Shown: positions 37,272-62,885 of the stretch, in pieces | How the letters are laid out: each line of letters begins with the position of its first letter | Numbering within the stretch: position 1 is the first letter of the stretch | Source of the DNA: Tubulanus polymorphus | Lineage: Eukaryota > Nemertea > Palaeonemertea > Tubulaniformes > Tubulanidae | Direction of reading: 5' to 3' | Assembly (NCBI RefSeq): GCF_964204645.1 | Contig: NC_134034.1 | Location: 12,176,462 to 12,240,461, forward strand | DNA length: 64,000 nucleotides | Notes under the pieces: model-generated | What the model saw: the letters and a program-made list of their open reading frames with translations, nothing else | What the model was told of the DNA's origin: nothing | Databases searched by the model: none | Made by a program: the position numbers and the translations under genes

Positions 37272-39163
37272 ATGATGGGTATGCACAGGCAGTTGTACGC
37301 GATGTGGCTGATGTTCTTGACGGCCAGTTTTATAACAATTATCTGGATCGCTGTCAATATTCACTTGTACGGTTGGAACTGCGATAATATATGCGCAGGT
37401 AAGAGATTCACCTCCAGCACATGGGAGCCCTTCACCCGACTGACAGGGTTCGTGAGGAGCCCTTCACCCGACTGACAGGGTTCGTGAGGAGCCCTTCACC
37501 CGACTGACAGGATTCATGGGAGCCCTGCACCTGACTGACAGGATTCATGAGAGCCCTGCACCTGACTGACAGGGTTCGTGAGGAGCCCTTCACCCGACTG
37601 ACAGGGTTCGTGAGGAGCCCTTCACCTGACTGACAGGATTCATGGGAGCCCTGCACCTGACTGACAGGATTCATGGGAGCCCTGCACCTGACTGGTAGGG
37701 TTCATGGGAGCCCGTCAGCCGACAAGCAAGGCTCAATGGGAACCCTTAACCCGACTGGCACGGCTCATGGGGAGCCCTTCATCCGACGGGTAGGGTTCAT
37801 GGGGAGCCCTTCGCCCAACTGGAAGGGTTCATGGGATGCCCTTCACCTGACTGACAGGGTTCATGGATAGCCTTTCATCCGACTAGCAGAGTTCATGGCG
37901 AAACCCTCCTTGACACCAATAAATTCATTAGTATGATGTTGTTGATGTTTTGCAGGTTGTGTCTCTTTAGTGTTAGTCGTTATAACCGGTATCATCAGTG
38001 ATATTCGCAGCCGAGATCCCAGTGATTCTCACTCCTGGTCCAGTCTCTATCACCAATACTACGAAGTTGTAAGAACACTAACCACCGGCAGATGGCGCTA
38101 CGCTCAGTTTATACGTCACTCGCTGGACGTCGCCAAGCAGCAAGAAGCCTTCCTAGTCAATCTACTGAAGGAAGCAAGTCACACAGAATACGGCAGGAAA
38201 TTCGGATTCGCCGAAATTAACGACGTAAAGAGATTCCGACAGCAGGTGCCACTGTCTAAATACGACAGTTACCGTGAACTGGTGAATAGGATGCTAGAAA
38301 CAGACGCCGGGGACCTGGTCAGTCCGGGTAAAGCCATCAAATACGGTATGACGTCGGGAACCACTGGTCCGAATAAACACATACCTTACAATTATAAAGC
38401 TTGGAATACGCTCGTAAACGACTACCTGTATTTAATCAGATACACTGAATACAAGCACGGTATGACTGCACGAGCAGGACTTCGTAAAATCCTCGAGCTT
38501 CTAATCCTGCATAAACCGAATCTAAACCGTTTTGGTAAACCAGTCGCCGGTATACTGGTGCTAGTGGGCGAGCAGGCTTATTCGGTAAAACCGGACTGTA
38601 TGCGAGGACGGAAACTGAGTGAATCGTTACAGATGTACATTCAGGCGCGGATTGCTTTACAAGAACCAAAACTACAATTCATACAAGGCTCATTCCCGAC
38701 TATTATGCGCAGTTTCGTTTCCACGATCGAATCTCGCTGGCAGGAAATCTGTGACGACATCGAACGCGGTACATTGACCGACAAACTCGACCTTGACATC
38801 GACCTGCGCCGTCAGATCGTCTGCCAGCTGAAGCCGGATAAAGCTCGCGCTGATGAACTGAGAATGTTGTTCGGCGAAGGTTTCGATAAGTTGCTCAGTC
38901 GCGTGTGGCCGGAGTTGCAGATGGTTGCACAGGTGACGACTGGAGCGTTCACTCATGAGTCAGCTGTCATCAGAGCCAAATATCTGAACGATTCTGTAAT
39001 GATGAAGTCTATAATGTATGGAGCTACTGAAGGCTTATATGGTATCACTATGCCTGGTGTTCCTGATGGTCATTATGTTCCGATGTTACCGCTACAGTTT
39101 CTAGAATTTATACCTCGTAACGAATGTGAACTCGACAAACCGACCACAAGACTAGCTCATCAG
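37272..39163 (+). CDS. GHDC-like: GH3/GHDC-like variable cassette 1
   Basis: Exon 1 is 37,272-37,398 and exon 2 is 37,956-39,163 (phase 1 junction, GTAAG donor, TGCAG acceptor). Exon 1 starts MMGMHRQLYA and supplies an N-terminal hydrophobic anchor; a second hydrophobic stretch (LVLVVITGII) opens exon 2. Exon 2 carries motif I (MTSGTTGPNKHIPY) and motif II (SIMYGATEGLYG) of the GH3 branch of acyl-adenylate-forming enzymes, and ends RLAHQ in phase 0 at a CAG|GTTTAT donor. Motif III is absent, so the protein would be incomplete unless spliced to the shared exons from 61,115. Family knowledge: plant GH3 proteins adenylate acyl acids and join them to amino acids; the animal GHDC reaction is not established. 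The frame runs 78 codons past the donor, to 39,397. It belongs to the PNKHIPYNYKAW class and is the first cassette seen. Confidence 0.88.
37403..37905. repeat. ~30-bp minisatellite inside intron 1 of cassette 1
   Basis: Units of GGAGCCCTTCACCCGACTGA then CAGGGTTCRTG recur about 16 times, degenerating to the right. They fill nearly the whole 557-bp intron; other cassettes lack it. Confidence 0.9.
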
Positions 39164-39319
39164 GTTTATGAATATTCTTTTCTCATTTCTTTCATCATCT
39201 TAACCTTACTTATCATCGATTATGTTCATCTATTTCATTCCTCATTTACCAGGCATTTCATGTGGTTTTTTCCCATTACAAAAAAATGTAATATGTTTTA
39301 TAACGTACTCGGGCCAGAT

Positions 39320-39469: not shown

Positions 39470-41124
39470 ATGGGTATGCATAGACGGTTACATGCGTTAT
39501 GGCTGGTGATTTCGACGACCAGTTTTGTCACGATGACCTGGATCGTTGTCAATATTCACTTGTACGGTTTGAACTGCGATACTATATGTGCAGGTAAGGA
39601 GCAACTGTTTCCAAATAATATCGATTGAAAATTCTGGACCAAAACACATGAAGACTTATAGTGCCTAATAGGTTAACGTGATTGTATCGATAACTTTCGC
39701 TACTACATCGTAGTATATAGTGGCATAGTGTCGTCATCAGGTAGATGAGACCTGTTGAAGCTTACATGCACTTAACTGATTAGCCCGTGTTCTTAAAACA
39801 ATCAAGGTTACCTACCGTTCAACCAGTCTTCGCAATTATTGATTTTAAACGGCTACAAATTCAAGGCAACTTCAACCAATCCTGATATGACCTTCGATGC
39901 TGTTGATGTTTTGCAGGTTGTGTGTGCTCAGTGTTAGTCGTTATAACCGGTATTATCAGTGATATTCGCAGCCGAGATCCCAGTGATTCTCACTCCTGGT
40001 CCAGTCTCTATCACCAATACTACGACGTCGTGAAAACACTGACCACTGGTAGGCGGCGCTACGCTCAATTCATACGTCACTCGTTGGACGTCGCCAAGCA
40101 ACAAGAAGCCGTTCTTGTTGATCTGATGAGGGAAGCAAGTCACACAGAATACGGCAGAAAATTCAGATTCGCCGAGATTAACGACGTAAAGAGATTCCGA
40201 CAGCAGGTGCCACTGTCTAAATACGACAGTTACCGTGAACTGGTGAATAGGATGATAGAAACAGACGCCGGGGACCTGGTCAGTCCGGGTAAAGCTATCA
40301 AATACGGTATGACGTCGGGAACCACTGGTCCAAACAAACACATACCATTCAACTATAAAGCTTTGAATATGATTGTAAGTGACTTGATCTATTTACGCAG
40401 ATACACCGAGTACAAACATAGTTTGACCGCGAGAGCGGGGCTTCGTAAAATCCTTGAGCTTCGTATCCCGCATAGGCCGAATCTAAACCGTTTCGGCAAA
40501 CCTGTCGCCGGGATAATGGCGCTAGTTGGCGAACAGGCTTATTCGGTAAAACTAGACTGTATGGGAGGGTGTAAACTGAGTGAATCGGTACAGATGTACA
40601 TTCAGGCGCGGATCGCTTTACAAGAATCAAAACTACAATTCATACAAGGCTCATTCCCGACTATTATGCGCAGTTTCCTTACTACGATCGAATCTCGCTG
40701 GCAGGAAATCTGTGACGACATCGAACGCGGTACGTTGACCGATAAACTCGACCTTGACATTGACCTGCGCCGGCAGATCGTCTGCCAACTGAAGCCGGAT
40801 AAAGCTCGTGCGGATGAACTGAGAATGATATTCGGTGAAGGTTTTGATAAGTTGCTCAGTCGAATGTGGCCGGAGTTGCAGATGGTTGCACAGGTGACGA
40901 CTGGAGCGTTCACTCACGAATCGGCTGTCATCAGAGCCAAATATCTGCACGATTCTGTAATGATGAAGTCTACAATGCACGGAGCTACTGAAGGTGTATA
41001 TGGTATCACTATGCCTGGTGTTCCTGATGGTCATTATGTTCCGATGTTACATCTACAGTTTCTAGAATTCATACCTCGTAACGAATGTGAACTCAGCAAA
41101 CCGACCACCAGACTAGCACATCAG
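39470..41124 (+). CDS. GHDC-like: GH3/GHDC-like variable cassette 2
   Basis: Exon 1 is 39,470-39,593 and exon 2 is 39,917-41,124; together 444 codons. Using its numbering, the anchor spans about residues 8-33, a second hydrophobic stretch 45-56, motif I (TSGTTGPNKHI) 174-184 and motif II (HGATEGVYGI) 396-405. Exon 1 is the most divergent of the PNKHIP class (MGMHRRLHALWLVISTTSF). It also has changes in otherwise fixed places: KLDCMGGCKL for KPDCMRGRKL, and CELSKP for CELDKP. It is intact, with a GTAAG donor after exon 1 and a CAG|GTTTAT donor after exon 2. Its predicted role is the N-terminal anchor and variable adenylation half of a GH3-type enzyme completed by the shared 3' exons. The frame stays open for 44 more codons into the spacer, hydrophobic because the DNA is T-rich. 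Confidence 0.88.
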
Positions 41125-41284
41125 GTTTATAAATCTTTTTCCTTCATTTTACCAGTACTTATCGTAAATTTCGTTTCAATTCTTTGTTTTCTTATTTCTC
41201 ATTTTTTACGCCTCCGGGCTACTTGTTTGTTTTTCATAGCGAATGATTGCATGTTTTAACAAAGTGCTCGGGCCTGATTTTTAA

Positions 41285-41447: not shown

Positions 41448-43210
41448 ATGATGGGTATGCACAGGCAGTTGTACGCGTTATGGCTGATGTTTTTAACGGC
41501 CAGTTTTATCACAATTATCTGGATCGCTGTCAATATTCACCTGTACGGTTTGAACTGCGATACTATATGCGCAGGTAAGGAGCGACTGCTTTCAAATAAG
41601 TGAATCATAAATTCTAGACTGATGCACGTGAAGACTTATAGTACTTACTAGGTTATCTTGATTTTATTAGTAACTTAAGCTTCTAGTACACAGTGTTACC
41701 ATCAGGGGCCGGTTGCATAGTCATGGCTTAGACTTAAGACCAGTCTAAGACCAACTCAGTTCTATAGCCCATCTAACAACTTAAGACCAGTCTTAAGATT
41801 TAGGACCACTTTTGGGCTTAAGTCACGACTGTGCAACTGGCCCCAGGTTAATGAAACCTGATGAAGCACTAGTAGCTACTTTTTCTTATAAACTCAAGGT
41901 AACCTACGAGCAATTAGTTTTCAAGTGTATTGATTTTACACGGCAATTGATTTTAGAGAACCTCAACCAACCCCGATATTTATGACCATTGATGTTTTGC
42001 AGGTTGCGCATGTTCAGTGTTCGTCGTTATAACCGGTATTATCAATGATATTCGCAGTCGAGATCCCAGTGATTCTCACTCCTGGTCCAGTCTCTACCGT
42101 CAATACTACGACGTCGTCAAAACTCTGACCACCGGTAGATGGCGCTACGTTCAATTCATACGTCACTCGTTGGACGTCGCCAAGCAACAAGAAGCCGTTC
42201 TTGTTGATCTGATGAAGGAAGCAAGTCACACAGAATACGGCAGGAAATTCAGATTCGCCGAAATTGATGACGTAAAGAAATTCCGACAGCAGGTGCCACT
42301 GTCTAAATACGACAGTTACCGTGAACTGGTGGATAGAATGATAGAAACAGACGCCGGGGACCTGGTCAGTCCGGGTAAAGCTATCAAATACGGTATGACG
42401 TCGGGAACCACTGGTCCAAATAAACACATACCTTACAATTATAAAGCGTGGAATTCTCTCGTGAACGATATGATCTATTTTGCTAGATACACCGAGTACA
42501 AGCACGGTTTGACTGCAAGAGCGGGGCTTCGTAAAACCCTCGGGTTTCTAATGCCACATAAACCGAATCTAAACCGTTTTGGTAAACCAGTCGCTGGTAT
42601 AATGGCGCTAGTTGGTGAGGAGGGTTATTCGGTAAAACCTGACTGTATGCGGGGGCATCATCTGAGTGAATCGGTACAGATGTACATTCAGGCGCGGATT
42701 GCTTTACAAGAAACAAAACTACAATTCATACAAGGCTCATTCCCGACCATAATGCGCAGTTTCGTTTCCACGATCGAATCTCGCTGGCAGGAAATCTGTG
42801 ACGACATCGAACGCGGTACATTGACCGATAACCTCGACCTTGACCTTGACCTGCGCCGGCAGATCGTCTGCCAACTGAAGCCGGATAAAGCTCGCGCTGA
42901 TGAACTGAGAATGTTGTTCGGTGAAGGTTTTGATAAGTTGCTCAGTCGCGTGTGGCCGGACTTGCAGATGGTTGCACAGGTGACAACTGGGGCATTCGCA
43001 CACGAATCGGCTGTCATCAGAGCCAAATATCTGAATGATTCTGTAATGATGAAGGCTGTGGGGTATGGAGGTACTGAAGGTGTATATGGTATCACTATGC
43101 CGGGTGTTCCTGATGGTCATTATGTTCCGATGTTACATCGACAGTTTCTAGAATTTATACCTCGTAACGAATGTGAACTCGACACACCGACCACCAGACT
43201 AGCCCATCAG
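41448..43210 (+). CDS. GHDC-like: GH3/GHDC-like variable cassette 3
   Basis: Exon 1 is 41,448-41,574 and exon 2 is 42,003-43,210. It belongs to the PNKHIPYNYKAW class but has its own pocket residues: NDMIYFARYTEY, GLRKTLGFLMPHKP and GEEGYSVKPDC, and motif II reads AVGYGGTEGVYG (Gly for Ala before TEG). Other private changes are FAHES for FTHES and WPDLQ for WPELQ. It ends RLAHQ at a CAG|GTTAAA donor in phase 0. Intron 1 (428 bp) holds a foldback element at 41,706-41,848. The frame closes 16 codons past the donor. Membrane anchor and motif layout are as in cassette 2; motif III must come from exon 3 at 61,115. Confidence 0.88.
41706..41848. mobile_element. Foldback element inside intron 1 of cassette 3
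   Basis: Inverted ends GGGGCCGGTTGCATAGTCAT and CACGACTGTGCAACTGGCCC enclose TTAAGACCAGTCTAAGACCA and its inverted partner ACTTAAGACCAGTCTTAAG. This is the best-preserved copy of the family that recurs at 7.3, 10.2, 14.4, 28.0, 36.8, 61.6 and 61.8 kb. Confidence 0.82.
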
Positions 43211-43504: not shown

Positions 43505-45126
43505 ATGGGTATGCATAGGCAATTAAACGCGTTATGGCTGATGTTTTTGACGGCCAGTTTTATCGCAATGATCTGGATCGCTGTCAATATTCACCTGTAC
43601 GGTTTGAACTGCGACACTATATGCGCAGGTAAGGAGCGACTGCTTCCAATTATTATCGATTGCAGATTCTAGCCCGCGACGACTATAGTGCTAAGCACGT
43701 TAGGTTGATATAAATAGTAACTAATAGCCTAATAGTGTATAGTAGATTGTTCGGGTAAACAACCTGATTAAGCTACTTTTGACAAGTAGCGAAAGCTTGT
43801 ATTTCTCGTGATACCAGTCTTCGTGTTTTTTTTTTTAATATTTTGCACTGCTAAAAATTCTAGACGACCTCGTACAACCCCGATATTCATGACCTTTGAT
43901 GCTGTTGATGTTTTGCAGGTTGCGCATGTTCAGTATTAGTCGTTATAACCGGTATTATCAGTGATATTCGCAGCCGAGATCCCAGTGATTCTCACTCCTG
44001 GTCCAGTCTCTATCACCAATACTACGACGTCGTCAAAACCCTGACCACTGGTAGGTGGCGCTACGCTAAATTCATACGTCACTCGCTAGATGTCGCCAAG
44101 CAACAAGAAGCCTTTCTAGTCGATCTGATGAGGGAAGCAAGTCACACGGAATACGGCAAGACATTTCGATTCACCGAAATTGACGATCTAAAAAGATTCC
44201 GACAGCAGGTGCCACTGTCTAAATACGACAGTTACCGTGAACTGGTGGATAGGATGATAGAAACAGACGCCGGGGACCTGGTCAGTCCGGGTAAAGCCGT
44301 CAAATACGGTATGACGTCGGGAACCACTGGACTGAATAAACACATACCGTACAATAATAAAGCGTGGACAATGATTTATAACTATTTTCATTATTTCTGC
44401 AGATACGTCGAATACAATCACGGTGTAACTTCAAGGGTGGGATTGGGCAAATTATTGGAGCTTCGCATCTCACATAAACTAAAAGTTAACCGTTTCGGCA
44501 AACCGATCGCTGGGGTATTAGTTTTACTTGGTGAGCAGGCTTATTCGGTAAAACCGGACTGTATGCGAGGGCACGAATTGAGTGAATCGGTACAGATGTA
44601 CATTCAGGCGCGGATTGCTTTACAAGAATCAAAACTACAATCCATACAAGGCTCATTCCCGACTATAATGCGCAGTTTCGTTTCCACGATCGAATCTCGC
44701 TGGCAGGAAATCTGTGACGACATCGAACGCGGTACATTGACCGACAAACTCGACCTTGACCTTGACCTGCGCCGTCAGATCGTCTGCCAGCTGAAGCCGG
44801 ATAAAGCTCGCGCTGATGAACTGAGAATGTTGTTCGGTGAAGGTTTTGATAAGTTGCTCAGTCGCGTGTGGCCGGAGTTGCAGATGGTTGCACAGGTGAC
44901 GACTGGAGCGTTCACTCACGAGTCAGCTGTCATCAGAGCCAAATATCTGAACGATTCTGTAATGATGAAGTTTAACTTGTATGGAGGTACTGAGGGTTTA
45001 TATGGTATCACTATGCCTGGTGTTCCTGATGGTCATTATGTTCCGATGTTACCGCTACAGTTTCTAGAATTTATACCTCGTAACGAATGTGAACTCGACA
45101 CACCGACCACCAGATTAGCACATCAG
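43505..45126 (+). CDS. GHDC-like: GH3/GHDC-like variable cassette 4
   Basis: Exon 1 is 43,505-43,628 and exon 2 is 43,919-45,126. It is the sole member of its class: motif I reads TSGTTGLNKHIPYNNKAW, followed by NYFHYFCRYVEYNHGV, SRVGLGKLLELRISHKLKV and AGVLVLLGEQ. Motif II is FNLYGGTEGLYG. The block between motif I and GEQ resembles cassettes 7 and 9 more than 1-3 (SRVGLGK, LLGEQ), as if the pocket were exchanged into an otherwise common scaffold. It ends at a CAG|GTTGTT donor. After the donor comes TTCCTCATTTTCCAG near 45,190 and an AATAAA at 45,233, the best candidate for private polyadenylation of any cassette. The frame closes 28 codons past the donor. Confidence 0.88.
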
Positions 45127-45308
45127 GTTGTTAAATTATTTTTCATTATCCTCCAATACTTTTTATCAATAACGTTTCATTTTTTCATTCCTCATTTTCC
45201 AGGCTTCTAGTACTTGTTGTTTTTTTTTTTCAAATAAAAAACCGTGAACTCGGGCCGATGTTCTGACTACGATCTGTTCGGGTCGTTATGCGACCTGAGC
45301 TTGGCTAA

Positions 45309-45458
45309 AATGTGAGACGATAAGATAGAGTAAAATCTATGTCACGCAATGACGGCAGTTGTTAAACATATCTGTGACGAAATCGCCTGATAATAGTTAT
45401 CAGGATCACGAGACCCATGGAACGGCCTGTGAATGTGTGGTTTCAAGGTTTTTTTTCT
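45309..45458 (+). promoter_or_regulatory. Promoter-like block of cassette 5
   Basis: GAGACGATAAGATAGAGTAA (GATA core), TGTCACGCAATGACGGCAGT, TAGTTATCAGGATCACGAGA and the GTGTGGTTTCAAGG block are shared with the neighbours. Confidence 0.5.
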
Positions 45459-46872
45459 ATGATGGGTATGCATAGGCAGTTATACACGTTATGCCTGATG
45501 TTTTTGACGGCCAGTTTTGTCACGATGATCTGGATCGCTGTCAATATTCACCTGTACGGTTTGAACTGCGATACTTTATGCGCAGGTAAGGAGCGACTGC
45601 TTCAAATTAATATCGATTGTAAATGCTAGAGTACGCAGAGACTAAGAATGTTAATGTTTTGCAGGTTGTGTGTGTTTAGTGTTAGTCGTCATAACCGGTA
45701 TTATCAGTGATATTCGCAGCCGAGATCCCAGTGATTCTCACTCCTGGTCCAGTCTCTATCACCAATACTACGACGTCGTGAAAACACTGACCACTGGTAG
45801 GTGGCGCTACGCTCAATTCACACGTCACTCGTTGGACGTCGCCAAGCAACAAGAAGCCGTTCTTGTTGATCTGATGAGGGAAGCAAGTCACACAGAATAC
45901 GGCAGGAAATTCAGATTCGCCGAAATTAATGACGTAAAGAAATTCCGACAGCAGGTGCCACTGTCTAAATACGACAGTTACCGTGAACTGGTGGATAGGA
46001 TGATAGAAACAGACGCCGGGGACCTGGTCAGTCCGGGTAAAGCCATCAAATACGGTATGACGTCGGGAACCACTGGTCCAAATAAACATATACCATTCAA
46101 CTATAAAGCGTGGAATTCACTCATGAACGATTACCTGTATTTAGTCAGATACACTGAATACAAACACGGTATGACTGCAAGAGCAGGACTTTGTAAAATC
46201 CTCGAGCTTCTAATCCTGCATAAACCAAATTCAAACCGTTTTGGTAAACCAGTCGCTGGTATAATGGTGCTAGTGGGCGAGCAGTCTTATTCGGTAAAAC
46301 CGGACTGTATGCGAGGACGGAAACTGAGTGAATCGGTACAGATGTACATTCAGGCGCGGATTGCTCTACAAGAACCAAAACTACAATTCATACAAGGTCT
46401 TTTTCCGACTATTATGCGTAGTTTCCTTACTACGATCGAATCTCGCTGGCAGGAAATCTGTGACGACATCGAACGCGGTACATTGCCCGATAACCTCGAC
46501 CTTGACCTCAACCTGCGCCAGCAGATCGTCTACCAGCTGAAGCCGGATAAAGCTCGCGCTGATGAACTGAGAATGTTGTTCGGTGAAGGTTTTAATAAGT
46601 TGCTCAGTCGCGTGTGGCCGGAGTTGCAGATGGTTTTACAAGTGACGACTGGAGCGTTCACTTCTGAATCGGCTGTCATCAGAGCCAAATATCTGCACGA
46701 TTCTGTAATGATGAAGGCTATCGAGTATTGGGGTACTGAGGGTTTATATGGTATCACAATGCCTGGTGTTCCTGATGGTCATTATGTTCCGATGTTACAT
46801 CTACAATTTCTAGAATTTATACCTCGTAACGAATGTGAACTCGACAAACCGACCACCAGACTAGCTCATCAG
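45459..46872 (+). CDS. GHDC-like: GH3/GHDC-like variable cassette 5
   Basis: Exon 1 is 45,459-45,585 and exon 2 is 45,665-46,872. The intron is only 79 bp, against 290-557 bp elsewhere. An in-frame ATG at 45,417 could add MERPVNVWFQGFFS ahead of the usual MMGMHRQ start; I keep 45,459 because it matches the other cassettes. Class PNKHIPFNYKAW, with NDYLYLVRYTEY. Private changes are numerous: GLCKILEL, PNSNRF, QGLFPTIM, LPDNLDLDLNLRQQIVYQL, EGFNKLL and VLQVTTGAFTSES, and motif II has AIEYWGTEGLYG with Trp at the second position. It is the most divergent PNKHIP-class exon 2 but still fully open. The donor is CAG|GTTTTT, and the sequence after it matches cassettes 7 and 9. Confidence 0.87.
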
Positions 46873-48113
46873 GTTTTTAAAATCTTTTTACATCATTCTA
46901 TTGGTATATTTCGTCAATTTAGTTTTTTTTTATTTTCATTCCTCATTTCCCAAGTGTTTAGGTGTTTTTTTCTCAGATAACGATTAAAATCAATATAGCT
47001 GCAAGGCAGCGATAACATGTTTTCTACACCTCTTACATTTGAACTCAGGGGAATGACCATAGAATATACAAGGTTTATAAGGTAAATTCATTGCCGGGAA
47101 TTCGAAGCTGATATTATGATAAGAGAAAATAATGGAGAATGTGACTGAAATGGATGTTTGATTCGGATATTCCCGGAGTATTCCATTTATTTTGGCAAAT
47201 GAATAATGCTCACAGCACAAACAAACGAAGAGTATGTGATATCCTACAGCAATTATATACCTACCTACAAGAATCCTTGAAATTGAAATATTTGATAATT
47301 TCAAGTTTTACCTCATTTGTTGATGGTGTTCTGTTCCGTAAATAACGAGTTTAAAATCGGATGCATACCACATACATGGAATCCACTAGTTCAGAGTGTC
47401 TGTTATATTTTAGTCAGAATTTATTATCGCGTCAAGATGCTGCTACTAGTCGAATTTGATAGGACATAAATTTTTAGAACGCTCGCGAAAGGGGAATGGA
47501 AAATAATATCACGAAAATAACAATAGTTTCCTGCGAAGTTATCAGTGATGATAATTTAATTTTCTTTTCTGCGCTCCACTGCGTTTCAGAGCAGTTTACA
47601 TACTTAAGTAAAAAAGTGCTCGATGCTTTATAACGCAGTCCTGTCAGACAACTGGATATACAGTCGACCTCGCAATAATCGTCAATTTAGGGACCGGCTC
47701 AAAAGTAACGATTCATCTAATTGACGGATTAAGTGCATTGTGACTTTCTGACTCATATCACCAGTCTCTGTTTTTCAATATCTACTATGAATGAATGAGA
47801 ACATGCGATGAGGTCGTCGTGATTCATGTATGTATCGATTTTCTGTGTGTATTTGCTACAAAGCTATAGGGTCTGTGTCAAGGCAATATGGCCTAATAAA
47901 CGCGGCACCTGCTGATTAATATTCATTTGTGCAGCGACGGTTTAACTGATATCATTACGTATGAGCAGTACTTATAAACGGACTTGATGTAGCAGTGTCT
48001 ATGCAATAAAATGACAGCTCAGTCGCTATAGATATCTAGCGAAACCGGCCGAACTAGTTTTCTGGCTAAATGAGAATATTTCATTCTGTGACAGCGCGGT
48101 GTAAGGCGTTTTT
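46873..48113. repeat. 1.24-kb spacer A, copy 1 of 3
   Basis: Spacer between cassettes 5 and 6, nearly repeated at 52,334-53,569 and 57,788-59,033. It contains the dispersed block GCTGCAAGGCAGCGATAACA and a pogo-like terminal sequence CAGTCGACCTCGCAATAATC (47,661). No 3' constant exon is present: I looked for YRTGD-like and LGQLLN-like coding and saw none. The open frames in it are unsupported. Confidence 0.8.
47990..48113 (+). promoter_or_regulatory. Promoter-like block of cassette 6
   Basis: ATGCAATAAAATGACAGCTC, ATAGATATCTAGCGAAACCG, GAACTAGTTTTCTGGCTAAA and TTCATTCTGTGACAGCGCGG. These are related to the cassette 1-5 blocks (TGACGACAGT, GATATCTATAYGAA, TTTTGTGACTGCGCGG) but diverged. Confidence 0.45.
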
Positions 48114-49745
48114 ATGACGTTGGGTATGCACAGGCAGTTATACGCGTTATGGCTGATGTTTTTGACGGCCAGTTTTGTCACAATGATCTGGATCGCTGTC
48201 AATATTCACCTGTACGGTTTGAACTGCGATATTGTATGCGCAGGTAAGAAGCGACTGCTTTCAAATATTAATTATATCGATTGTAAATTCTAGACCAAAA
48301 CACGTGAAGACTTATAGTAATTAGTAGGTTAACTCGATTTTATAAGTAATTTTAGCTTCAAGTGCACAGTGGCTCAATCAGGTTTAATGAAACCCGGCGA
48401 AACATAACTCGTCACTAGTAACGAAAGCTTGCATTTCTCGTGTTACCAGTCTTCGCGGTTATTGATTTAACACCTCTTCAAATTCTAGACGACCTCGATC
48501 AACGCCGATATTTATGACCTTTGATGTTTTTGTTTCGCAGGTTGCGCATGTTCAGTATTAGTCGTTATAACTGGTATTATCAGTGATATTCGCAGCCGAG
48601 ATCCCAGTGATTCTCACTCCTGGTCCAGTCTCTATCACCAATACTACGACGTAGTGAAAACAATGACCACCGGAAGATGGCGCTACGCTGAGTTCATACG
48701 TCACTCGCTAGACGTCGCCAAGCAACAAGAAGCCTTTCTAGTCAATCTGATGAGGGAAGCAAGTCACACAGAATACGGCAGAAAATTCAGATTCGCCGAG
48801 ATAAACAACATAAAGAAATTCCGACAGCAGGTGCCACTGTCTAAATACGACAGTTACCGCGAACTGGTAGATAGGATGCTAGAAACAGACGCCGGGGACC
48901 TGGTCAGTCCGGGTAAAGCCGTCAAATACGGTATGACGTCGGGAACTACTGGCAAGAGTAAACACATACCGTACTGTTGTACAGCTTGGAATTCACTCAT
49001 GAACGATTTCTTCCCTTTCCTGAGATACACTGAATACAAACACGGTATGACTGCGAGAGCGGGGCTTCGTAAAATCCTCGAGATTCTTATTCTACAAAAA
49101 CCGAATCTAAACCGTTTTGGTAAACCAGTTGCCGGTATAATGGCGCTAGTAGGCGAGCAGTCTTATTCGTTAAAACCGGACTGTATGCGAGTGCACAAAC
49201 TGAGTGAATCGGTACAGATGTACATTCAGGCGCGGATTGCTTTACAAGAACCAAAACTACAATTCATACAAGGCTCATTCCCGACTATTATGCGCAGTTT
49301 CCTTTCCACGATCGAATCTCGCTGGCAGGAAATCTGTGACGACATCGAACGCGGTACATTGACCGATAAACTCGACCTTGACCTTGACCTGCGCCGTCAG
49401 ATCGTCTGCCAACTGAAGCCGGATAAAGCTCGTGCTGATGAACTGAGAATGTTGTTCGGGGAAGGTTTTGATAAGTTGCTCAGTCGAATGTGGCCGGAGT
49501 TGCAGATGGTTGCACAGGTGACGACTGGAGCGTTCACTCACGAGTCAGCTGTCATCAGAGCCAAATATCTGCACGATTCTGTTATGATGCAGTCTGAGTA
49601 CGGAGCTACTGAGGGCAAATATGGTATCACTATGCCTGGTGTTCCTGATGGTCATCATATTCCGATGTTATCGCTACAGTTTCTAGAATTCATACCTCGT
49701 AATGAATGTGAACTCGACAAACCGACCACCAGACTAGCTCATCAG
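48114..49745 (+). CDS. GHDC-like: GH3/GHDC-like variable cassette 6
   Basis: Exon 1 is 48,114-48,243 (starts MTLGMHRQLYALW, one codon longer) and exon 2 is 48,541-49,745, one codon shorter than usual. Class KSKHIPYCCTAW, with NDFFPFLRYTEY and ILEILILQKP; motif II is MMQSEYGATEGKYG, where one residue before the motif is missing. Lys after TEG replaces the Leu or Val of cassettes 1-5, and SLKPDC replaces SVKPDC. It shares these traits with cassette 8. The acceptor is TTTCGCAG rather than TTTTGCAG. The exon is open from the acceptor, although its first internal ATG is only at 48,664. The exon 2 donor is CAG|GTTTAT. The predicted role is as for the other cassettes, with a different predicted pocket. 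Confidence 0.88.
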
Positions 49746-50695: not shown

Positions 50696-52333
50696 ATGAT
50701 GGGTATGCGTAGGCAGTTGTACGCGTTATGGATGATGTCTTTAGCCGCCAATTTTTTAACAATTACCCTGACCGTTGTCAACATTCACCTGTACGGTTTG
50801 AACTGCAATACTTCATGCGCAGGTAAGAAGCGACTGCTTTCAAATAATATCGATTGTACATTCTAGAGTAGTACGCAAGAATAGTTTTTTAGTGGTTAAC
50901 TTGATTTCATTGAAACTATCGCTAGTACATTGTAGTAGATAGTGGCTTCATCGGGTAGATGAGACCTGTTGCAGCTACAATGCACTTAAAGTAACTTGTG
51001 TTCTAAAAACAATCAAGGTTACCTGCCGTTCTAACCAGTATTCGCGTTTATTGATTTAAGACGACTACAAATTCTAGACGAACACAATCAACCCTCATAT
51101 GACGTTTGATGTCGTTGTTTTGCAGGTTGTGTGTCTTTAGTGTTAATCGTTATAACCGGTATTATCAGTGATATTCGCAGACGAGATCCCAGTGATTCTC
51201 ACTCCTGGTCCAGTCTCTATCGTCAATACCGATGCGTAGTAATAACGCTTATCACCGGAAGATGGCGCTACGCTCAATTCACACGTCACTCGCTGGACGT
51301 CGCCAAGCAACAAGAAGCCGTTCTTGTTGATCTGATGAGGGAAGCAAGTCACACAGAATACGGCAGGAAATTCAGATTCGCCAAAATTGACGACGTAAAG
51401 AAATTCCGACAGCAGGTGCCACTGTCTAAATACGACAGTTACCGTGAACTGGTGGATAGGATGATAGAAACAGACGCCGGGGACCTGGTCAGTCCGGGTA
51501 AAGCCGTCAAATACGGTATGACGTCGGGAACTACAGGCAGGAGTAAACACATACCGTACAATAATAAAGCGTGGAAAATGCTGTTTAGTTATTATCATTA
51601 TTTCTTCAGGTACATTGAGTGCAAACACGATGTCACATCAAGAGTGGGTTTGGGAAAAATATTGGAGCTACGTATGTTACATCGACCGATTCTAAACCGC
51701 TTCGGTAGGGCAGTAGCTGGGGCATTAGTTTTACTAGGTGAACAGGCTTATTCGGTAAAACCGGACTGTATGCGAGGGCAAAAACTGAGTGAATCGGTAC
51801 AGATGTACATTCAGGCGCGGATTGCTTTACAAGAACCAAAACTACAATTCATACAAGGCTCATTCCCGACTATAATGCGCAGTTTCGTTTCCACGATCGA
51901 ATCTCGCTGGCAGGAAATCTGTGACGACATCGAACGCGGTACATTGACCGATAACCTCGACCTTGACATCGACCTGCGCCGTCAGATCGTCTGCCAACTG
52001 AAACCGGATAAAGCTCGCGCGGATGAACTGAGAATGTTGTTCGGTGAAGGTTTCGATAAGTTGCTCAGTCGTGTGTGGCCGGAGTTGCAGATGGTTGCAC
52101 AGGTGACGACTGGAGCGTTCACTCACGAGTCAGCTGTCATCAGAGCCAAATATCTGCACGATTCTGTAATGATGAAGTCTATAATGCACGGAGCTACTGA
52201 AGGTTTATATGGTATCACTATGCCTGGTGTTCCTGATGGTCATTATGTTCCGATGTTACATCTACAGTTTCTAGAATTTATACCTCGTAATGAATGTGAA
52301 CTCGACAAACCGACCACCAGACTAGCTCATCAG
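50696..52333 (+). CDS. GHDC-like: GH3/GHDC-like variable cassette 7
   Basis: Exon 1 is 50,696-50,822 and exon 2 is 51,126-52,333. Exon 1 differs clearly from the rest: MMGMRRQLYALWMMSLAANF, then TITLTVVNIHLYG and NCNTSCAG. Exon 2 class is RSKHIPYNNKAW with FSYYHYFFRYIECKHDV, SRVGLGKILELRMLHRPIL and GRAVAGALVLLGEQ; motif II is SIMHGATEGLYG. The N-terminal linker also differs (QYRCVVITLITGRWRY for QYYDVVKTLTTGRWRY). It ends RLAHQ at a CAG|GTTTCA donor. Cassette 9 is nearly identical. It lies head to tail with cassette 6, as one half of the 5.46-kb duplication unit. Confidence 0.88.
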
Positions 52334-53569: not shown

Positions 53570-55197
53570 ATGACGTTGGGTATGCACAGGCAGTTATACG
53601 CGTTATGGCTGATGTTTTTGACGGCCAGTTTTGTCACAATGATCTGGATCGCTGTCAATATTCACCTGTACGGTTTGAACTGCGATATTGTATGCGCAGG
53701 TAAGAAGCGACTGCTTTCAAATATTGATTATATCGATCGTAAATTCTAGACCAAAACACGTGAAGACTTATAGTAATTAGTAGGTAGATTGTATAAGTAA
53801 TTTTAGCTTCAAGTGCACAGTGGCTCAATCAGGTTTAATGAAACCCGGCGAAGCAGCAACTGGTCACTAGTAACGAAAGCTTGCATTTCTCGTGTTACCA
53901 GTCTTCGCGGTTATTGATTTAACACCTCTTCAAATTCTAGACGACCTCGATCAACCCCGATGTTAATGACCTTTGATGTTTTTGTTTCGCAGGTTGCGCA
54001 TGTTCAGTATTAGTCGTTATAACTGGTATTATCAGCGATATTCGCAGCCGAGATCCCAGTGATTCTCACTCCTGGTCCAGTCTCTATCACCAATACTACG
54101 ACGTAGTGAAAACAATGACCACCGGAAGATGGCGCTACGCTGAGTTCATACGTCACTCGCTAGACGTCGCCAAGCAACAAGAAGCCTTTCTAGTCGATCT
54201 GATGAGGGAAGCAAGTCACACAGAATACGGCAGAAAATTCAGATTCGCCGAAATAAACAACATAAAGAAATTCCGACAGCAGGTGCCACTGTCTAAATAC
54301 GACAGTTACCGCGAACTGGTAGATAGGATGATAGAAACAGACGCCGGGGACCTGGTCAGTCCGGGTAAAGCCATCAAATACGGTATGACGTCGGGAACTA
54401 CTGGCAAGAGTAAACACATACCGTACTGTTGTAGAGCGTGGAATTCACTCATGAACGATTTCTTCCCTTTACTGAGATACACTGAATACAAACACGGTAT
54501 GACTGCACGAGCGGGACTTCGTAAAATCCTCGAGATTCTTATTCTACAAAAACCGAATTTAAACCGTTTTGGTAAACCAGTTGCCGGTATAATGGCGCTA
54601 GTAGGCGAGCATGCTTATTCGTTAAAACCGGACTGTATGCGAGGACGGAAACTGAGTGAATCGGTACAGATGTACATTCAGGCGCGGATTGCTCTACAAG
54701 AATCAAAACTACAATTCATACAAGGCTCATTCCCGACTATTATGCGCAGTTTCCTTTCCACAATCGAATCTCGCTGGCAGGAAATCTGTGACGACATCGA
54801 ACGCGGTACATTGACCGATAACCTCGACCTTGACCTCAACCTGCACCGTCAGATCGTCTGCCAACTGAAGCCGGATAAAGCTCGTGCTGATGAACTGAGA
54901 ATGTTGTTCGGGGAAGGTTTTGATAAGTTGCTCAGTCGAATGTGGCCGGAGTTGCAGATGGTTGCACAGGTGACGACTGGAGCGTTCACTCACGAGTCAG
55001 CTGTCATCAGAGCCAAATATCTGCACGATTCTGTTATGATGCAGTCTGAGTACGGAGCTACTGAGGGCAAATATGGTATCACTATGCCAGGTGTTCCTGA
55101 TGGTCATTATGTTCCGATGTTACATCTACAGTTACTAGAATTTATACCTCGTAACGAATGTGAACTCGACAAACCGACCACCAGACTAGCTCATCAG
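53570..55197 (+). CDS. GHDC-like: GH3/GHDC-like variable cassette 8
   Basis: Exon 1 is 53,570-53,699 (MTLGMHRQLY) and exon 2 is 53,993-55,197. It is a close copy of cassette 6: KSKHIPYCCRAW, NDFFPLLRYTEY, ILEILILQKP and MMQSEYGATEGKYG, with the same one-codon deletion before motif II. It differs by SYSLKPDC becoming AYSLKPDC, MRVHKL becoming MRGRKL, LDLDLDLRRQ becoming LDLDLNLHRQ, and QFLEF becoming QLLEF. It is fully open, with a CAG|GTTTAT donor. The few differences from cassette 6 and the shared flanks show that the pair arose through the 5.46-kb duplication. Confidence 0.88.
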
Positions 55198-56147: not shown

Positions 56148-57787
56148 ATGATGGGTATGCGTAGGCAGTTGTACGCGTTATGGATGATGTCTTTAGCCGC
56201 CAATTTTTTAACAATTACCCTGACCGTTGTCAACATTCACCTGTACGGTTTGAACTGCAATACTTCATGCGCAGGTAAGAAGCGACTGCTTTCAAATAAT
56301 ATCGATTGTACATTCTAGAGTAGTACGCAAGAATAGTTGTTTTAGTGGTTAACTTGATTTCATTGAAAACTATCGCTACTACATTGTAGTAGATAGTGGC
56401 TTCATCGGGTAGATGAGACCTGTTGAAGCTACAATGCACTTAAAGTAACTTGTGTTCTAAAAACAATCAAGGTTACCTGCCGTTCTAACCAGTATTCGCG
56501 TTTATTGATTTAAGACGGCTACAAATTCTAGACGACCACAATCAACCCTCATATGACGTTTGATGTCGTTGTTTTGCAGGTTGTGTGTCTTTAGTGTTAA
56601 TCGTTATAACCGGTATTATCAGTGATATTCGCAGCCGAGTTCCCAGTGATTCTCACTCCTGGTCCAGTCTCTATCGTCAATACCGATGCGTAGTAATTAC
56701 GCTTATCACCGGAAGATGGCGCTACGCTCAATTTATACGTCACTCGCTGGACGTCGCCAATCAACAAGAAGCCTTCCTAGTCAATCTGATGAGGGAAGCA
56801 AGTCACACAGAATACGGCAGGAAATTCAGATTCGCCAAAATTGACGACGTAAAGAAATTCCGACAGCAGGTGCCACTGTCTAAATACGACAGTTACCGTG
56901 AACTGGTGGATAGGATGATAGAATCAGACGCCGGGGACCTGGTCAGTCCGGGTAAAGCCGTCAAATACGGTATGACGTCGGGAACTACAGGCAGGAGTAA
57001 ACACATACCGTACAATAATAAAGCGTGGAAAATGCTGTTTAGTTATTATCATTATTTCTTCAGGTACATTGAGTGCAAACACGATGTCACATCAAGAGTG
57101 GGTTTGGGAAAAATATTGGAGCTACGTATGTTACATCGACCGATTCTAAACCGCTTCGGTAGGGCAGTAGCTGGGGCATTAGTTTTACTAGGTGAGCAGG
57201 CTTATTCGGTAAAACCGGACTGTATGCGAGGACGGAAACTGAGTGAATCGGTACAGATGTACATTCAGGCGCGGATTGCTTTACAAGAACCAAAACTACA
57301 ATTCATACAAGGCTCATTCCCGACTATTATGCGCAGTTTCCTTTCCACGATCGAATCTCGCTGGCAGGAAATCTGTGACGACATCGAACGCGGTACACTG
57401 ACCGATAAACTCGACCTTGACATCGACCTGCGCCGTCAGATCGTCTGCCAGCTGAAGCCGGATAAAGCTCGCGCTGATGAACTGAGAATGTTGTTCGGCG
57501 AAGGTTTCGATAAGTTGCTCAGTCGCGTGTGGCCGGAGTTGCAGATGGTTGCACAGGTGACGACTGGAGCGTTCACTCACGAGTCAGCTGTCATCAGAGC
57601 CAAATATCTGAACAATTCTGTAATGATGAAGTCTATAATGCACGGAGCTACTGAAGGTTTATATGGTATCACTATGCCTGGTGTTCCTGATGGTCATTAT
57701 GTTCCGATGTTACATCTACAATTTCTAGAATTTATACCTCGTAACGAATGTGAACTCGACAAACCGACCACCAGACTAGCTCATCAG
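56148..57787 (+). CDS. GHDC-like: GH3/GHDC-like variable cassette 9
   Basis: Exon 1 is 56,148-56,274 and exon 2 is 56,580-57,787. It is almost identical to cassette 7 in exon 1 and in the pocket block (RSKHIPYNNKAW, SRVGLGKILELRM, GRAVAGALVLLGEQ, SIMHGATEGLYG). Differences include VANQQEAFLVNL for VAKQQEAVLVDL, IESDAG for IETDAG, and YLNNSVM for YLHDSVM. It is open and intact, with a CAG|GTTTTT donor. Downstream sequence is again spacer A. It is probably younger than cassettes 1-5, given its similarity to cassette 7. Confidence 0.88.
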
Positions 57788-59033: not shown

Positions 59034-62000
59034 ATGACGATGGGTATGCACAGGCAGTTGTACGCGTTATGGCTGATGTTTTTGACGGCCAGTTTTGTCA
59101 CAATGATCTGGATCGCTGTCAATATTCACCTGTACGGTTTGAACTGCGATATTGTATGCGCAGGTAAGAAGCGACTGCTTTCAAATATTGATTATATCGA
59201 TCGTAAATTCTAGATTAAAACACGTAAAGACTTATAGTAATTAGTAGGTTAACTCGATTTTATAAGTTTAGCTTCAAGTGCACAGTGGCTCAATCAGGTT
59301 TAATGAAACCCGGCGAAGCAGAAACTGGTCACTAGTAACGAAAGCTTGTATTTCTCGTGTTACCAGAGTTCGCGGTTATTGATTTAACACCTCTTCAAAT
59401 TCTAGACGACCTCGATCAACCCCGATGTTAATGACCTTTGATGTTTTTGTTTCGCAGGTTGCGCATGTTCAGTATTAGTCGTTATAACCGGTATTATCAG
59501 TGATATTCGCAGCCGAGATCCCAGTGATTCTCACTCCTGGTCCAGTCTCTATCACCAATACTACGACGTAGTGAAAACAATGACCACCGGAAGATGGCGC
59601 TACGCTGAGTTCATACGTCACTCGCTAGACGTCGCCAAGCAACAAGAAGCCTTTCTAGTCAATCTGATGAGGGAAGCAAGTCACACGGAATACGGCAGGA
59701 AATTCAGATTCGCCGAAATTGACGACGTAAAGAAATTCCGACAGCAGGTGCCACTGTCTAAATACGACAGTTACCGCGAATTGGTGGATAGGATGATAGA
59801 AACAGACGCCGGGGACCTGGTCAGTCCGGGTAAAGCCATCAAATACGGTATGACGTCGGGAACTACTGGCAAGAGTAAACACATACCGTACTCTTGTAGA
59901 GCGTGGAATTCACTCATGAAAGATTACTTCCCTTTACTGAGATACACTGAATACAAACACGGTATGACTGCACGAGCGGGGCTTCGTAAAATCCTCGAGA
60001 TTCTTATTCTGCAAAAGCCGAATTTAAACCGTTTTGGTAAACCAGTTGCCGGTATAATGGCGCTAGTAGGCGAGCATGCTTATTCGTTAAAACCGGACTG
60101 TATGCGAGAGCACAAACTGAGTGAATCGGTACAGATGTACATTCAGGCGCGGATTGCTTTACAAGAACCAAAACTACAATTCATACAAGGCTCATTCCCG
60201 ACTATTATGCGCAGTTTCGTTTCCACGATCGAATCTCGCTGGCAGGAAATCTGTGACGACATAGAACGTGGTACATTGACCGACAAACTCGACCTTGACA
60301 TCGACCTGCGCCGCCGGATCGTCTGCCAACTGGAGCCGGATAAAGCTCGCGCTGATGAACTGAGAATGTTGTTCGGTGAAGGTTTCGATAAGATGCTCAG
60401 TCGCGTGTGGCCGGAGTTGCAGATGGTTGCACAGGTGACGACTGGATCGTTCACTTCTGAATCGGCTGTCATCAGAGCCAAATATCTGAACGATTCTGTA
60501 ATGATGAAGTTTACCGTGCACGGAGCTACTGAGGGCAAATATGGTATCACTATGCCAGGTGTTCCTGATGGTCATTATGTTCCGATGTTACATCGACAGT
60601 TTCTAGAATTTATACCTCGTAACGAATGTGAACTCGACAAACCGACCACCAGACTAGCTTATCAGGTTCACGCAAACATGCATATTTTCATTTTCTATAT
60701 CAAGAAGGTTCAATTCAATTACGCTTTATCGAGGTTCCTTGAAAAGTCATTTCAGATTAAGCTTATGACCGAGCAAAAAGTCATTTTTATCCATAAAACA
60801 TATATTTTAAAGGGTCCATGAGCACAGTGTAAAGTCATTGATCGGTTGCAAATATTCCAAATGCATATTTTTCTAGAAACACAATTTTTGCGTTCTTCAC
60901 AAGTGCGTTGCGTGAATATTCTGTTATTTCATTTTGTTCTCCTGCCGATGACTTATATTACTTTTGGCCGAAATTTTGCTCGAAATATATACCACAGAGC
61001 TTTTCACTTTTGGCTGAATCTATTCTGGGATTTCCCTCTTCATCGTACACGGATAATGTGTATCTTCTCCACCCATGTATTAACTAATAACTATGATTTC
61101 TATTTTTGGTATAGTTAGTCGAGGATGAAGAATATGAAGTTGTCAGTACAGGAATGAATGGTGTTTACAGATATAGGACCGGGGACGTGGTTAAAGTGAA
61201 AGGTTACTGGAATCAGTTACCAGTTTATCGTATAGAATACAGGTAAACTCCCGAAAACATGGCTGCCAACATAAGTCCCATTACGACATCAACGTCAAAA
61301 CACTCTTGATTGGTCGCTTCCACAATCCCTCTTCGGCATCATGTGACCACTCGTCACGAATTTCAATCTTGTATTTTTTTTCTCTCGAAGGTTGGGTCAA
61401 CTTTTGAATTTGTTTTGGGAGAAGACACCAGAGGGCGTATTTCAAGCAGCTATCGACGCAACAATGGGCGAATTGACGGAGGTCGAACTGGTCAGTTACA
61501 CGGCAACCGAGAACATACACTGGCAGGCGATTACTGGAGAAGGTGAGTTTGAAATATATACAAGGGCAGTTTTGCAGTCATGGTTTGGAGTGAAGACCAG
61601 TCTAAGACGAACTTGGTTCCATAGCTAATCGAACCAATCTAAGCTAATTGCGGTCATAAAGCCATTCTAAAAATTTCTTAGTTACCGAATCGTTAGTGGT
61701 AAGTTTTTTGCAATCAGATGGGCTTATACCAATATGTGGTTTGTGAAAATATCCGATCGTGCGTGAAACTATACCACAGGACATGTTACTCACTAGACCA
61801 GTCTAAAACCAGCATAGTCCTATAGCCGATCTAACAACTTGAGCTAAGTCTAAGCTCACTTTGGTTCTATAGCCAATCTAACAGCTTAAGACCAGTTTAA
61901 ACTCATTTTGGTTCTACAACCAATCTAACAACTTAAAACTAGCCCTTTTAAGATATTTAAACCAATTTGTAGTGAAGTCACGTTGACTGTGATGCAACGA

Positions 62001-62885
62001 GGCTCGGGAAACTATGTATCTGCATCTAATTCCATGTTCTGTGTTTATGTTTCATTAAGACGGAGGAGATGAAGGGAAGCAACGATTTTACGTGTTGTTT
62101 ATTGAGATACAAGGAGACACGGCATTGACAGCTGAACAGAAAACAAAGGTATTTCTATTAACTAAAGTTCTGCGAATTTGATAAGAATCCAGGAAAAAGT
62201 CAAACCACGATAAACCCATGGTCGGCTCCGGCCTACCATCCGGCCAGTTGTGATCTCGATCGTGTCTTTTGATTAATATTTCCCTATCACCCTTAAGTAA
62301 CTTGCCTCAGTGAGATAAGGCGTGATGCCGTTGCATCCACTATCAGTGCTGAGTGACCAGTGGGTTCGAGTCCTGCTGGCTGACTTGTGCGGGCAACACG
62401 TCAAAGGCCTTAGTCCCGTCGTGAGGTTAAACGAATAATCGGACATGGTTGGGGAAAACAAGATCCAAACGACGTTAAGCCAAAACAAACAAACAAAACT
62501 TTATACCGAGGGGGACCTTTGTAGCGTGACCTGATGCCATCACCCTATTTTTACACTTACCCACCCACTATAAGACTAATTGAACCATACGCGAAATCAC
62601 GAACATCCCCTACGAACTTGTTTATCCTCATCGTTTTTTTCCCCCTCTTCGTTCTAGTTCGACGAGAATTTGATTCGTAAATTCGACGTTTACGGCATGC
62701 TCAGGAAAAACGGTTCGATCAGTCCCATGCAGGTGATACAGGTGCAAAAGGGAACGTTCCTCGAGTTGAAACTTCTTTACCTAGAACTGAACCCGAACAC
62801 AACCAGCAACCAATTCAAACAGCCCAGAGCTATTCGAGATGAAAGGTGTCTGGAATTAGTCAAACGTAACATCTTTCAAGCTTGA
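59034..62885 (+). CDS. GHDC-like: GH3/GHDC-like gene, cassette 10 plus shared 3' exons (complete)
   Basis: Six exons: 59,034-59,163; 59,458-60,665; 61,115-61,242; 61,391-61,542; 62,060-62,148; 62,658-62,885. Phases agree at every junction and the product is 644 residues with TGA at 62,883. An N-terminal anchor and second hydrophobic stretch are followed by motif I (TSGTTGKSKHI), motif II (FTVHGATEGKYG), motif III (YRTGD) and a C-terminal domain ending RNIFQA. Length is near that of plant GH3 proteins (about 600) and somewhat longer than I recall for human GHDC. The reaction is probably acyl adenylation; acceptor and substrate are unknown. The pocket block is of the KSKHIPYSCRAW class, but the region before motif II lacks the one-codon deletion of cassettes 6 and 8 and has GSFTSES, KMLSRVW and RLAYQ, so this cassette looks recombinant. 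No AATAAA was seen between the stop and the satellite. Confidence 0.9.
61115..61242 (+). CDS. GHDC-like: Shared constant exon 3 (motif III)
   Basis: Starts after TTTGGTATAG in phase 0 and ends in phase 2 before GTAAAC. It encodes LVEDEEYEVVSTGMNGVYRY then RTGDVVKVKGYWNQLPVY. YRTGD is the GH3 motif III whose Asp binds the ATP ribose in the family. Only one copy in the window, 449 bp after cassette 10. Confidence 0.9.
61391..61542 (+). CDS. GHDC-like: Shared constant exon 4
   Basis: Acceptor TCTCGAAG, donor GTGAGT. After joining, the frame reads RLGQLLNLFWEKTPEG and continues to IHWQAITGE. RLGQLLN follows motif III in the family and leads into the mobile C-terminal domain. An open frame in another register (61,310-61,546) is a shadow. 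Confidence 0.9.
61580..61665. mobile_element. Foldback-family fragment in the intron after exon 4
   Basis: GGAGTGAAGACCAGTCTAAG and CCATAGCTAATCGAACCAAT match the TTAAGACCAGT family. Confidence 0.55.
61790..61990. mobile_element. Second foldback-family copy in the same intron
   Basis: GACCAGTCTAAAACCAGCAT, AGCCGATCTAACAACTTGAG and TTTGGTTCTATAGCCAATCT repeats, ending GTGATGCAAC. Part of it is a short tandem of the ~47-bp interior unit. Confidence 0.6.
62060..62148 (+). CDS. GHDC-like: Shared constant exon 5
   Basis: An 89-bp exon after TTTCATTAAG, with donor GTATTT. It encodes GGDEGKQRFYVLFIEIQGD and TALTAEQKTK, phase 1 in and phase 0 out. It is too short to appear as a long open frame. Confidence 0.87.
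62215..62502 (+). mobile_element. SINE in the last intron
   Basis: The tRNA-like head contains B box GGGTTCGAGTCCTG (62,360-62,373). The body runs through CGTCAAAGGCCTTAGTCCCG and GACGTTAAGCCAAAACAAAC, with an AAACAAACAAAAC tail ending near 62,500. The A box is only weakly recognisable. It is in the same orientation as the gene and away from the exon borders. Confidence 0.7.
62658..62885 (+). CDS. GHDC-like: Shared constant exon 6 (terminal)
   Basis: Acceptor CGTTCTAG. It encodes FDENLIRKFDVYGMLRKNGS through LKLLYLELNPNTTSNQFKQP to the stop. The RDERCLELVKRNIF-type ending resembles the GH3 C-terminus, where conserved basic residues close the active site. Confidence 0.9.
   Translation, partial: FDENLIRKFDVYGMLRKNGSISPMQVIQVQKGTFLELKLLYLELNPNTTSNQFKQPRAIRDERCLELVKRNIFQA

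Follow-up and report, generated by a model that had tools for sequence, protein, structure and literature searches.

Can one enzyme gene carry many alternative front halves and a single shared back half? The question is raised by a locus of the palaeonemertean ribbon worm Tubulanus polymorphus (Nemertea), whose genome is assembled as 267.8 Mb in 77 contigs. In a stretch of 64,000 nucleotides (contig C10:12176462-12240461, hereafter the window), ten plus-strand pairs of exons, which we call cassettes, each encode the front half of a GH3-type protein and lie upstream of a single block of four 3' exons. The best reading of this locus is a variable-constant layout like that of UGT1 and the clustered protocadherins, built here from two-exon cassettes and encoding a GH3 adenylating enzyme. 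We consider it quite probable that the array forms a single gene, whose ten 5' cassettes are interchangeable in front of one constant 3' region.

Much work has been done on GH3 chemistry in plants, where the enzymes are, to our knowledge, encoded by separate genes without a shared 3' end. A bacterial GH3-like enzyme makes N-acyl ornithine (PMC12493201; this and the other sources are cited for the parts consulted). Among the papers listed in searches by title and abstract opening, with subscription journals and preprints mostly outside, we found neither a variable-constant locus for a GH3 or adenylating enzyme nor a functional study of an animal GH3.

Results

Ten intact cassettes and one set of 3' exons

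A variable-constant cluster is recognised by intact variable 5' units in tandem with compatible splice phases, which is what all ten cassettes are, and by a single set of constant 3' exons, which is what follows them. Exon 1 measures 124 base pairs (bp) and ends in the donor GCAG/GTAAGR in every cassette (the slash marks the splice site). Exon 2 measures 1,208 bp in eight cassettes and 1,205 bp in cassettes 6 and 8, and its 3' boundary is TCAG/GTT, in phase 0, in 10 of 10. A preliminary description of this DNA had reported these open exon pairs, the exon 2 lengths and the phase-0 CAG before GT, and all of this is confirmed; the ten donor coordinates that it gave are the last exon bases. There are no internal stops in any cassette and all splice in phase, and any cassette joined to the constant exons gives a frame open to one terminal stop, of 642 amino acids (aa), or 641 for cassettes 6 and 8. 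These two cassettes have TTG where the others start with ATG, and an in-frame ATG two codons upstream (48114 and 53570), a start that NCBI model P0004 also uses for cassette 8. When the ten exon 2 ends are aligned, 33 of the last 40 exon columns and positions +1 to +3 (GTT) are invariant; past GTT, invariant columns drop to 10 of 200. The conservation of the exon 2 end and donor is not chance.

Permissive tblastn of the protein and blastn of the exons detected no second copy of the constant exons on either strand of the whole window, the best non-self matches having E values of 1.9 (tblastn) and 0.26 (blastn, within the constant block); intronic repeats of the constant block do match other parts of the window. 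Hidden 3' exons in the spacers between cassettes did not come to light in these searches, with which genome-wide searches agree. Across the genome, GH3 N-terminal matches number 19, ten being the cassettes, as against 10 matches for GH3_M (exon 3), counts that are formally lower bounds because such searches score the best candidates only; here every first-look candidate was scored (19/19 N-terminal, 22/22 constant-protein, 13/13 GH3_M). The difference arises because the nine upstream cassettes have no exon 3 of their own: each of the nine other N-terminal copies has a GH3_M match close behind it, and the tenth match is the constant exon 3 of this locus. The claim that the 3' exons are single-copy, for which a tblastn check of the window had been suggested, therefore stands.

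In a search with the constant protein, exon 3 was found at all nine other GH3 copies and exon 6 at seven of them, both copies on contig C1 having an exon-3 match but no exon-6 match. In a tandem GH3 trio on contig C3 (L018, C3:8620300-8630200), exons 3 and 6 are present in every copy. This is how ordinary duplication looks in the genome, in contrast to the shared-end locus; a tandem array of complete genes, true of the trio, fails as a description of cassettes 1-9, which are without 3' exons of their own. An in-frame stop falls within the matched N-terminal stretch in two of the nine other copies, one of them partial, and both have an exon-3 match. The stop is a TAG in the copies at C4:24939024 and C1:8152511, which are possibly decaying.

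A gene model that supports splicing of cassette 4 to the constant exons

Numbered isoforms at NCBI are usually based on aligned transcripts, and one public gene model is our strongest evidence for splicing from a cassette to the constant region. Isoform X2 of LOC141911654 (P0003, 642 aa) agrees at every residue with cassette 4 joined to the constant exons; the implied intron, about 16 kb long, runs from 45126 to 61115 and passes over six cassettes. We read this isoform as transcript-based, because a homology-only model would be expected to pick the nearest cassette (10). No other cassette shares the final 20 nucleotides of cassette 4 exon 2, so that reads over this junction could hardly be assigned to the wrong cassette. 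The same 20 nucleotides also single out cassettes 1, 2, 3 and 10, and up to 150 nucleotides are required to tell cassettes 5-9 apart. Five sequences make up the P0003 protein cluster, isoform X2 being one; a cassette 10 isoform is expected among the others. Splicing to the constant exons is thus supported by a model for cassette 4, and we infer it for the other cassettes.

The exon 2 junction itself probably predates the array. Its phase-0 donor position is identical in eight of the nine GH3 paralogues elsewhere in the genome, and in the ninth (L020) the frame continues across the junction, with an intron lying upstream. A large exon 2 with a phase-0 junction would then be ancestral, and it is easy to imagine how the front half was amplified.

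Purifying selection, gene conversion and growth of the array

The ratio of nonsynonymous to synonymous substitution rates (dN/dS) lies between 0.19 and 0.39 in all 45 cassette pairs. A deficit of nonsynonymous changes is seen even in the youngest pairs, 7/9 (12 nonsynonymous versus 17 synonymous, P=5e-5) and 6/8 (19 versus 15, P=0.006). These ratios, and the absence of internal stops in the ten cassettes, argue against decaying 3'-truncated duplicates; the preliminary description had argued against simple decay from the open frames and proposed the dN/dS estimate, which bears it out.

Silent divergence is distributed unevenly, with a mean dS of 0.79 in codons 181-262, 0.34 in codons 386-405 and 0.12-0.24 in the remaining segments. 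At fourfold sites, counted in 41 of the 45 pairs (6/8, 6/10, 8/10 and 7/9 excluded), the difference is 0.427 in codons 181-260 versus 0.127 outside, none of 20000 column shuffles being as extreme, and the best 80-codon window in a scan was at codon 177 (0/2000). Cassette 9 has its nearest relative in cassette 7 for six of eight segments, in cassette 6 for codons 263-330 and in cassette 1 for codons 331-390. Such shifts along the exon fit gene conversion between cassettes outside a spared central block, and the framework outside codons ~180-262 looks homogenised by this process. Units 6-7 and 8-9 and the front of cassette 10 (48120-59163) follow one another at a spacing of ~5.46 kb and are 94-100% alike by segment, so that the array seems to have grown recently in steps of two cassettes. 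Two groups, 6/8/10 and 7/9, stand apart; all other cassette pairs show ~11-19% protein divergence and have distinct introns and spacers.

A variable block around the predicted acyl pocket

Both cassettes scanned against Pfam match the GH3 N-terminal domain (172.8 and 175.9 bits, cut-off 23.6), and all ten exceed the cut-off in a GH3 profile search of the genome. Motif I (SGTTG..K) and the equivalent of motif II ([YH][GW][AG]TEG) are present in every cassette, and motif III (GVYRYRTGD) is encoded by constant exon 3, motif definitions being taken from PMC12493201. Any product would be an acyl acid-amino acid ligase of the GH3 type. The structure model of P0003 has an N-terminal pair of hydrophobic helices, with low confidence in that part; the exon 1 helices are probably a membrane anchor.

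Columns with at least three residue types make up 26 of 83 in codons 180-262 versus 15 of 361 elsewhere (Fisher P=2e-11, for a region drawn after looking), and the P0003 model places a helix, 188-208, inside this variable block. As judged by alignment, divergence is concentrated around the helix that corresponds to the one beside the plant GH3 acyl pocket. Six jasmonate-pocket residues of JAR1, as numbered in PMC12493201, map through a GH3.12 alignment to positions 186, 190, 197, 198, 401 and 402. Four of the six vary among cassettes (186 Y/F, 197 D/Y, 198 Y/L/M/F, 402 L/V/K) and two are invariant. A hydrophobic pocket at helices 5 and 6 is described in PMC6073592, along with residues 146 and 151, which are named for the choice of amino acid; transferred by offset, these too lie within the N-terminal half, so that the cassettes may alter this choice as well. 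Positive selection on the pocket block is unsupported: in codons 181-262 dN/dS is 0.24 (dN 0.19, dS 0.79), a low value because silent divergence is high there too. The ratio of proportions of nonsynonymous and synonymous differences (pN/pS) is 0.57 in helix 187-202, and 1.80 for positions 393-395 and 402, which were chosen after their variation had been seen.

Relatives and features of the window

Other animal relatives among the protein matches listed (120 of 147, only candidates sharing most words being scored) are a few, including Helobdella and Lamellibrachia. P0015-P0018 are N-terminal-only GH3 frames of 392-433 aa, in clusters of 2-4 members, that end at the homologous junction. Their last residues are the corresponding Q-V or E-V, which is what reading through a CAG/GT or GAG/GT donor would give, and it is possible that they represent further arrays in other animals.

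Coordinates are collected in Table 1. A minisatellite with a 32-bp unit (~15 copies, 37420-37898) lies within intron 1 of cassette 1, and another with a 40-bp unit (~22 copies, 63126-64000) starts ~240 bp past the constant region and reaches the window end. In positions 1-37000 of the window, stop-to-stop frames of at least 75 aa passing a complexity filter were inspected by eye.

Table 1. Exons of the GH3 array and a candidate local terminal frame (window coordinates)
Feature	Position	Strand	Remark
Cassette 1 exon 1	37275..37398	+	in-frame ATG also at 37272
Cassette 1 exon 2	37956..39163	+	donor CAG/GTTTAT; used by NCBI model P0005, local acceptor matching 39366
Cassette 2 exon 1	39470..39593	+	
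Cassette 2 exon 2	39917..41124	+	
Cassette 3 exon 1	41451..41574	+	
Cassette 3 exon 2	42003..43210	+	
Cassette 4 exon 1	43505..43628	+	
Cassette 4 exon 2	43919..45126	+	joined to 61115 in NCBI LOC141911654 isoform X2
Cassette 5 exon 1	45462..45585	+	
Cassette 5 exon 2	45665..46872	+	NCBI model P0006: SSLHT-stop end, nearest match 47590
Cassette 6 exon 1	48114..48243	+	ATG 48114; TTG at 48120
Cassette 6 exon 2	48541..49745	+	1,205 bp
Cassette 7 exon 1	50699..50822	+	
Cassette 7 exon 2	51126..52333	+	
Cassette 8 exon 1	53570..53699	+	ATG 53570; TTG at 53576
Cassette 8 exon 2	53993..55197	+	1,205 bp; donor read through in NCBI model P0004
Cassette 9 exon 1	56151..56274	+	
Cassette 9 exon 2	56580..57787	+	
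Cassette 10 exon 1	59040..59163	+	
Cassette 10 exon 2	59458..60665	+	adjoins constant region; donor CAG/GTTCAC
Constant exon 3	61115..61242	+	motif III GVYRYRTGD; GH3_M (PF23571)
Constant exon 4	61391..61542	+	
Constant exon 5	62060..62148	+	
Constant exon 6	62658..62885	+	TGA stop; C-terminal domain
Candidate local terminal frame (SSLHT stop)	47590..47607	+	after cassette 5, behind pyrimidine-rich acceptor

Evidence against a shared 3' end, and alternative explanations

Several observations weigh against a common 3' region. Three of the four NCBI protein clusters at the locus are truncated models: LOC141911620 (P0005) splices cassette 1 (39163) to an end in IP-stop, whose sole match in the searched stretch is at 39366; LOC141912164 (P0006) joins cassette 5 (46872) to an SSLHT-stop end that fits 47590 and, less simply, 53044 or 58504; and LOC141912165 (P0004, a cluster of two) reads cassette 8 through its own donor. 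Computed U1 pairing is weak, at -5.6 kcal/mol, for all ten exon 2 donors (CAG/GTT); the range is -6.7 to -11.0 kcal/mol for eight paralogues and -5.7 to -10.2 for the donors of the constant exons. Position +3 is T in the cassettes and A or G in the eight paralogues. AATAAA occurs in six of the nine spacers (4 to 9), with 11 instances in total where base composition predicts ~6, and the 315 bp past the constant exons contain neither this hexamer nor ATTAAA. Upstream blocks of 200 bp are 64-78% alike between diverged cassettes, no better than introns (15 pairs). The preliminary description had itself named transcripts ending in the spacers as one outcome that would count against its variable-constant reading, and the models of cassettes 1, 5 and 8 show that outcome unless other transcripts exist; on the other side, its reading is upheld by the architecture (19 versus 10 matches) and by the cassette 4 isoform.

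Some of these signals discriminate poorly. The donor of cassette 10 is equally weak, so donor weakness does not separate used from unused cassettes, and such donors may point to regulated splicing. Polyadenylation signals are uninformative or adverse to a common 3' end. No convincing core promoter was seen by eye in a 260-bp upstream alignment, and since the upstream blocks are conserved no more than introns, the sequence gives no support for promoters.

That cassettes 1-9 are 3'-truncated duplicates, that is, short N-terminal-only genes ending in the spacers, with cassette 10 alone yielding an enzyme, would agree with the three locally ending models, with AATAAA in spacers 4 to 9 and with the weak donors; 3' loss may also have occurred elsewhere, in the two contig C1 copies. 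We nevertheless find this explanation unlikely. It has to accommodate the cassette 4 isoform, a CAG/GTT retained in all ten cassettes despite diverging flanks, a dN/dS well below 1 in all pairs, and spacers 1-3 that are short (294-326 bp) and without AATAAA or ATTAAA; its products would have neither motif III nor the C-terminal domain, and exon 3 is kept in all nine GH3 copies elsewhere. A mixed locus, in which each cassette could be joined to the distant constant exons or end in a local terminal exon or retained intron, with weak donors and local acceptors acting as a switch, is compatible with the one-gene reading and is a real, if doubtful, possibility. NCBI models of both kinds exist, and the donors are uniformly CAG/GTT. 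A pyrimidine-rich acceptor followed by a short SSLHT-stop frame recurs at 47590, 53044 and 58504, after cassettes 5, 7 and 9, where local terminal exons may give truncated forms. However, spacers 5, 7 and 9 are 95.6-98.1% alike throughout, so this conservation proves nothing and the shared acceptor may reflect only recent duplication, and the local models may be computational.

Two further explanations concern how cassettes are chosen and whether the copies are real. A single upstream promoter with mutually exclusive splicing, as in Dscam, in place of one promoter per cassette, would suit upstream blocks that resemble introns in their conservation and leave separate promoters not evident. Every cassette, however, brings a start-codon exon of its own, and inspection of the upstream alignment by eye revealed no obvious conserved acceptor; we regard this arrangement as quite improbable. 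False duplication or collapse of copies in the assembly might be suspected from units 6-7 and 8-9, whose segments are 95-100% alike. It is very improbable given the ~11-19% protein difference and distinct introns and spacers of pairs other than those within 6/8/10 and 7/9, and an assembly of 267.8 Mb in 77 contigs.

Discussion

Under the one-gene reading, a cassette would be transcribed, probably from its own upstream region, and its phase-0 exon 2 donor (CAG/GT) would be spliced past any downstream cassettes to exon 3 of the single set 3-6. Exon 1 would supply the start codon together with the hydrophobic helices. Most of the GH3 N-terminal domain, motifs I and II included, would come from exon 2, and exons 3-6 would contribute motif III, the hinge and the moving C-terminal domain common to all products. 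Each product would be a ligase with a cassette-specific acyl pocket, the differences lying mainly in the block of helix 188-208 and in residues on either side of motif II. That local promoters select the cassette, that the protein is anchored in the membrane and that substrates differ are points that we infer.

The closest parallel is the vertebrate UGT1 (UGT1A) cluster (PMC1885805, PMC3325998), in which variable units carrying a membrane-targeting N-terminus and a substrate domain stand in tandem before constant C-terminal exons, with hypervariable pocket positions (PMC1885805), much as proposed for the worm. UGT1 encodes a glycosyltransferase rather than a GH3 enzyme, belongs to a different phylum and has one variable exon per unit instead of two. 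Own promoters are reported for UGT1, where gene conversion is said not to be predominant (PMC1885805), whereas the worm framework looks homogenised by conversion. Gene conversion contributes to the evolution of the clustered protocadherins, which share the variable/constant layout but are adhesion proteins, not enzymes, with a single variable exon per unit (PMC1885805). GCNT2 likewise encodes an enzyme and combines alternative first exons with shared 3' exons, but its enzyme is unrelated and its layout is termed vertebrate-specific in that source (PMC1885805). With plant JAR1/GH3.11, GH3.12 and GH3.15 (PMC11253546, PMC12493201, PMC6073592) the worm protein shares domain, motifs and fold, and differs from them in its N-terminal hydrophobic helix pair (low-confidence model). 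The worm's other GH3 genes (LOC141906355 [P0007] on contig C5, the C3 trio and five others) resemble the array in the phase-0 donor (8/9), but each has its own exon 3.

More tentatively, and with rather less than even confidence, we picture an animal system of small-molecule conjugation resembling a receptor repertoire, in which about ten acyl pockets selected by promoter or splicing share one catalytic end, conversion evens out the framework but spares the pocket block, and weak donors and local terminal exons set the ratio of full to truncated forms. If so, duplication of the enzyme's front half alone would be enough to yield new specificities.

If the one-gene reading is true, the layout that underlies drug metabolism in UGT1 and protocadherin diversity in the protocadherin clusters arose independently in an invertebrate adenylating enzyme, and one gene can probably make several enzymes differing mainly around the substrate pocket. 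The locus would provide natural chimeras in which only the acyl-binding half is swapped, making the roles of the pocket and of the C-terminal domain testable. As the NCBI annotation divides it into at least four gene loci, similar layouts may hide in other invertebrate genomes.

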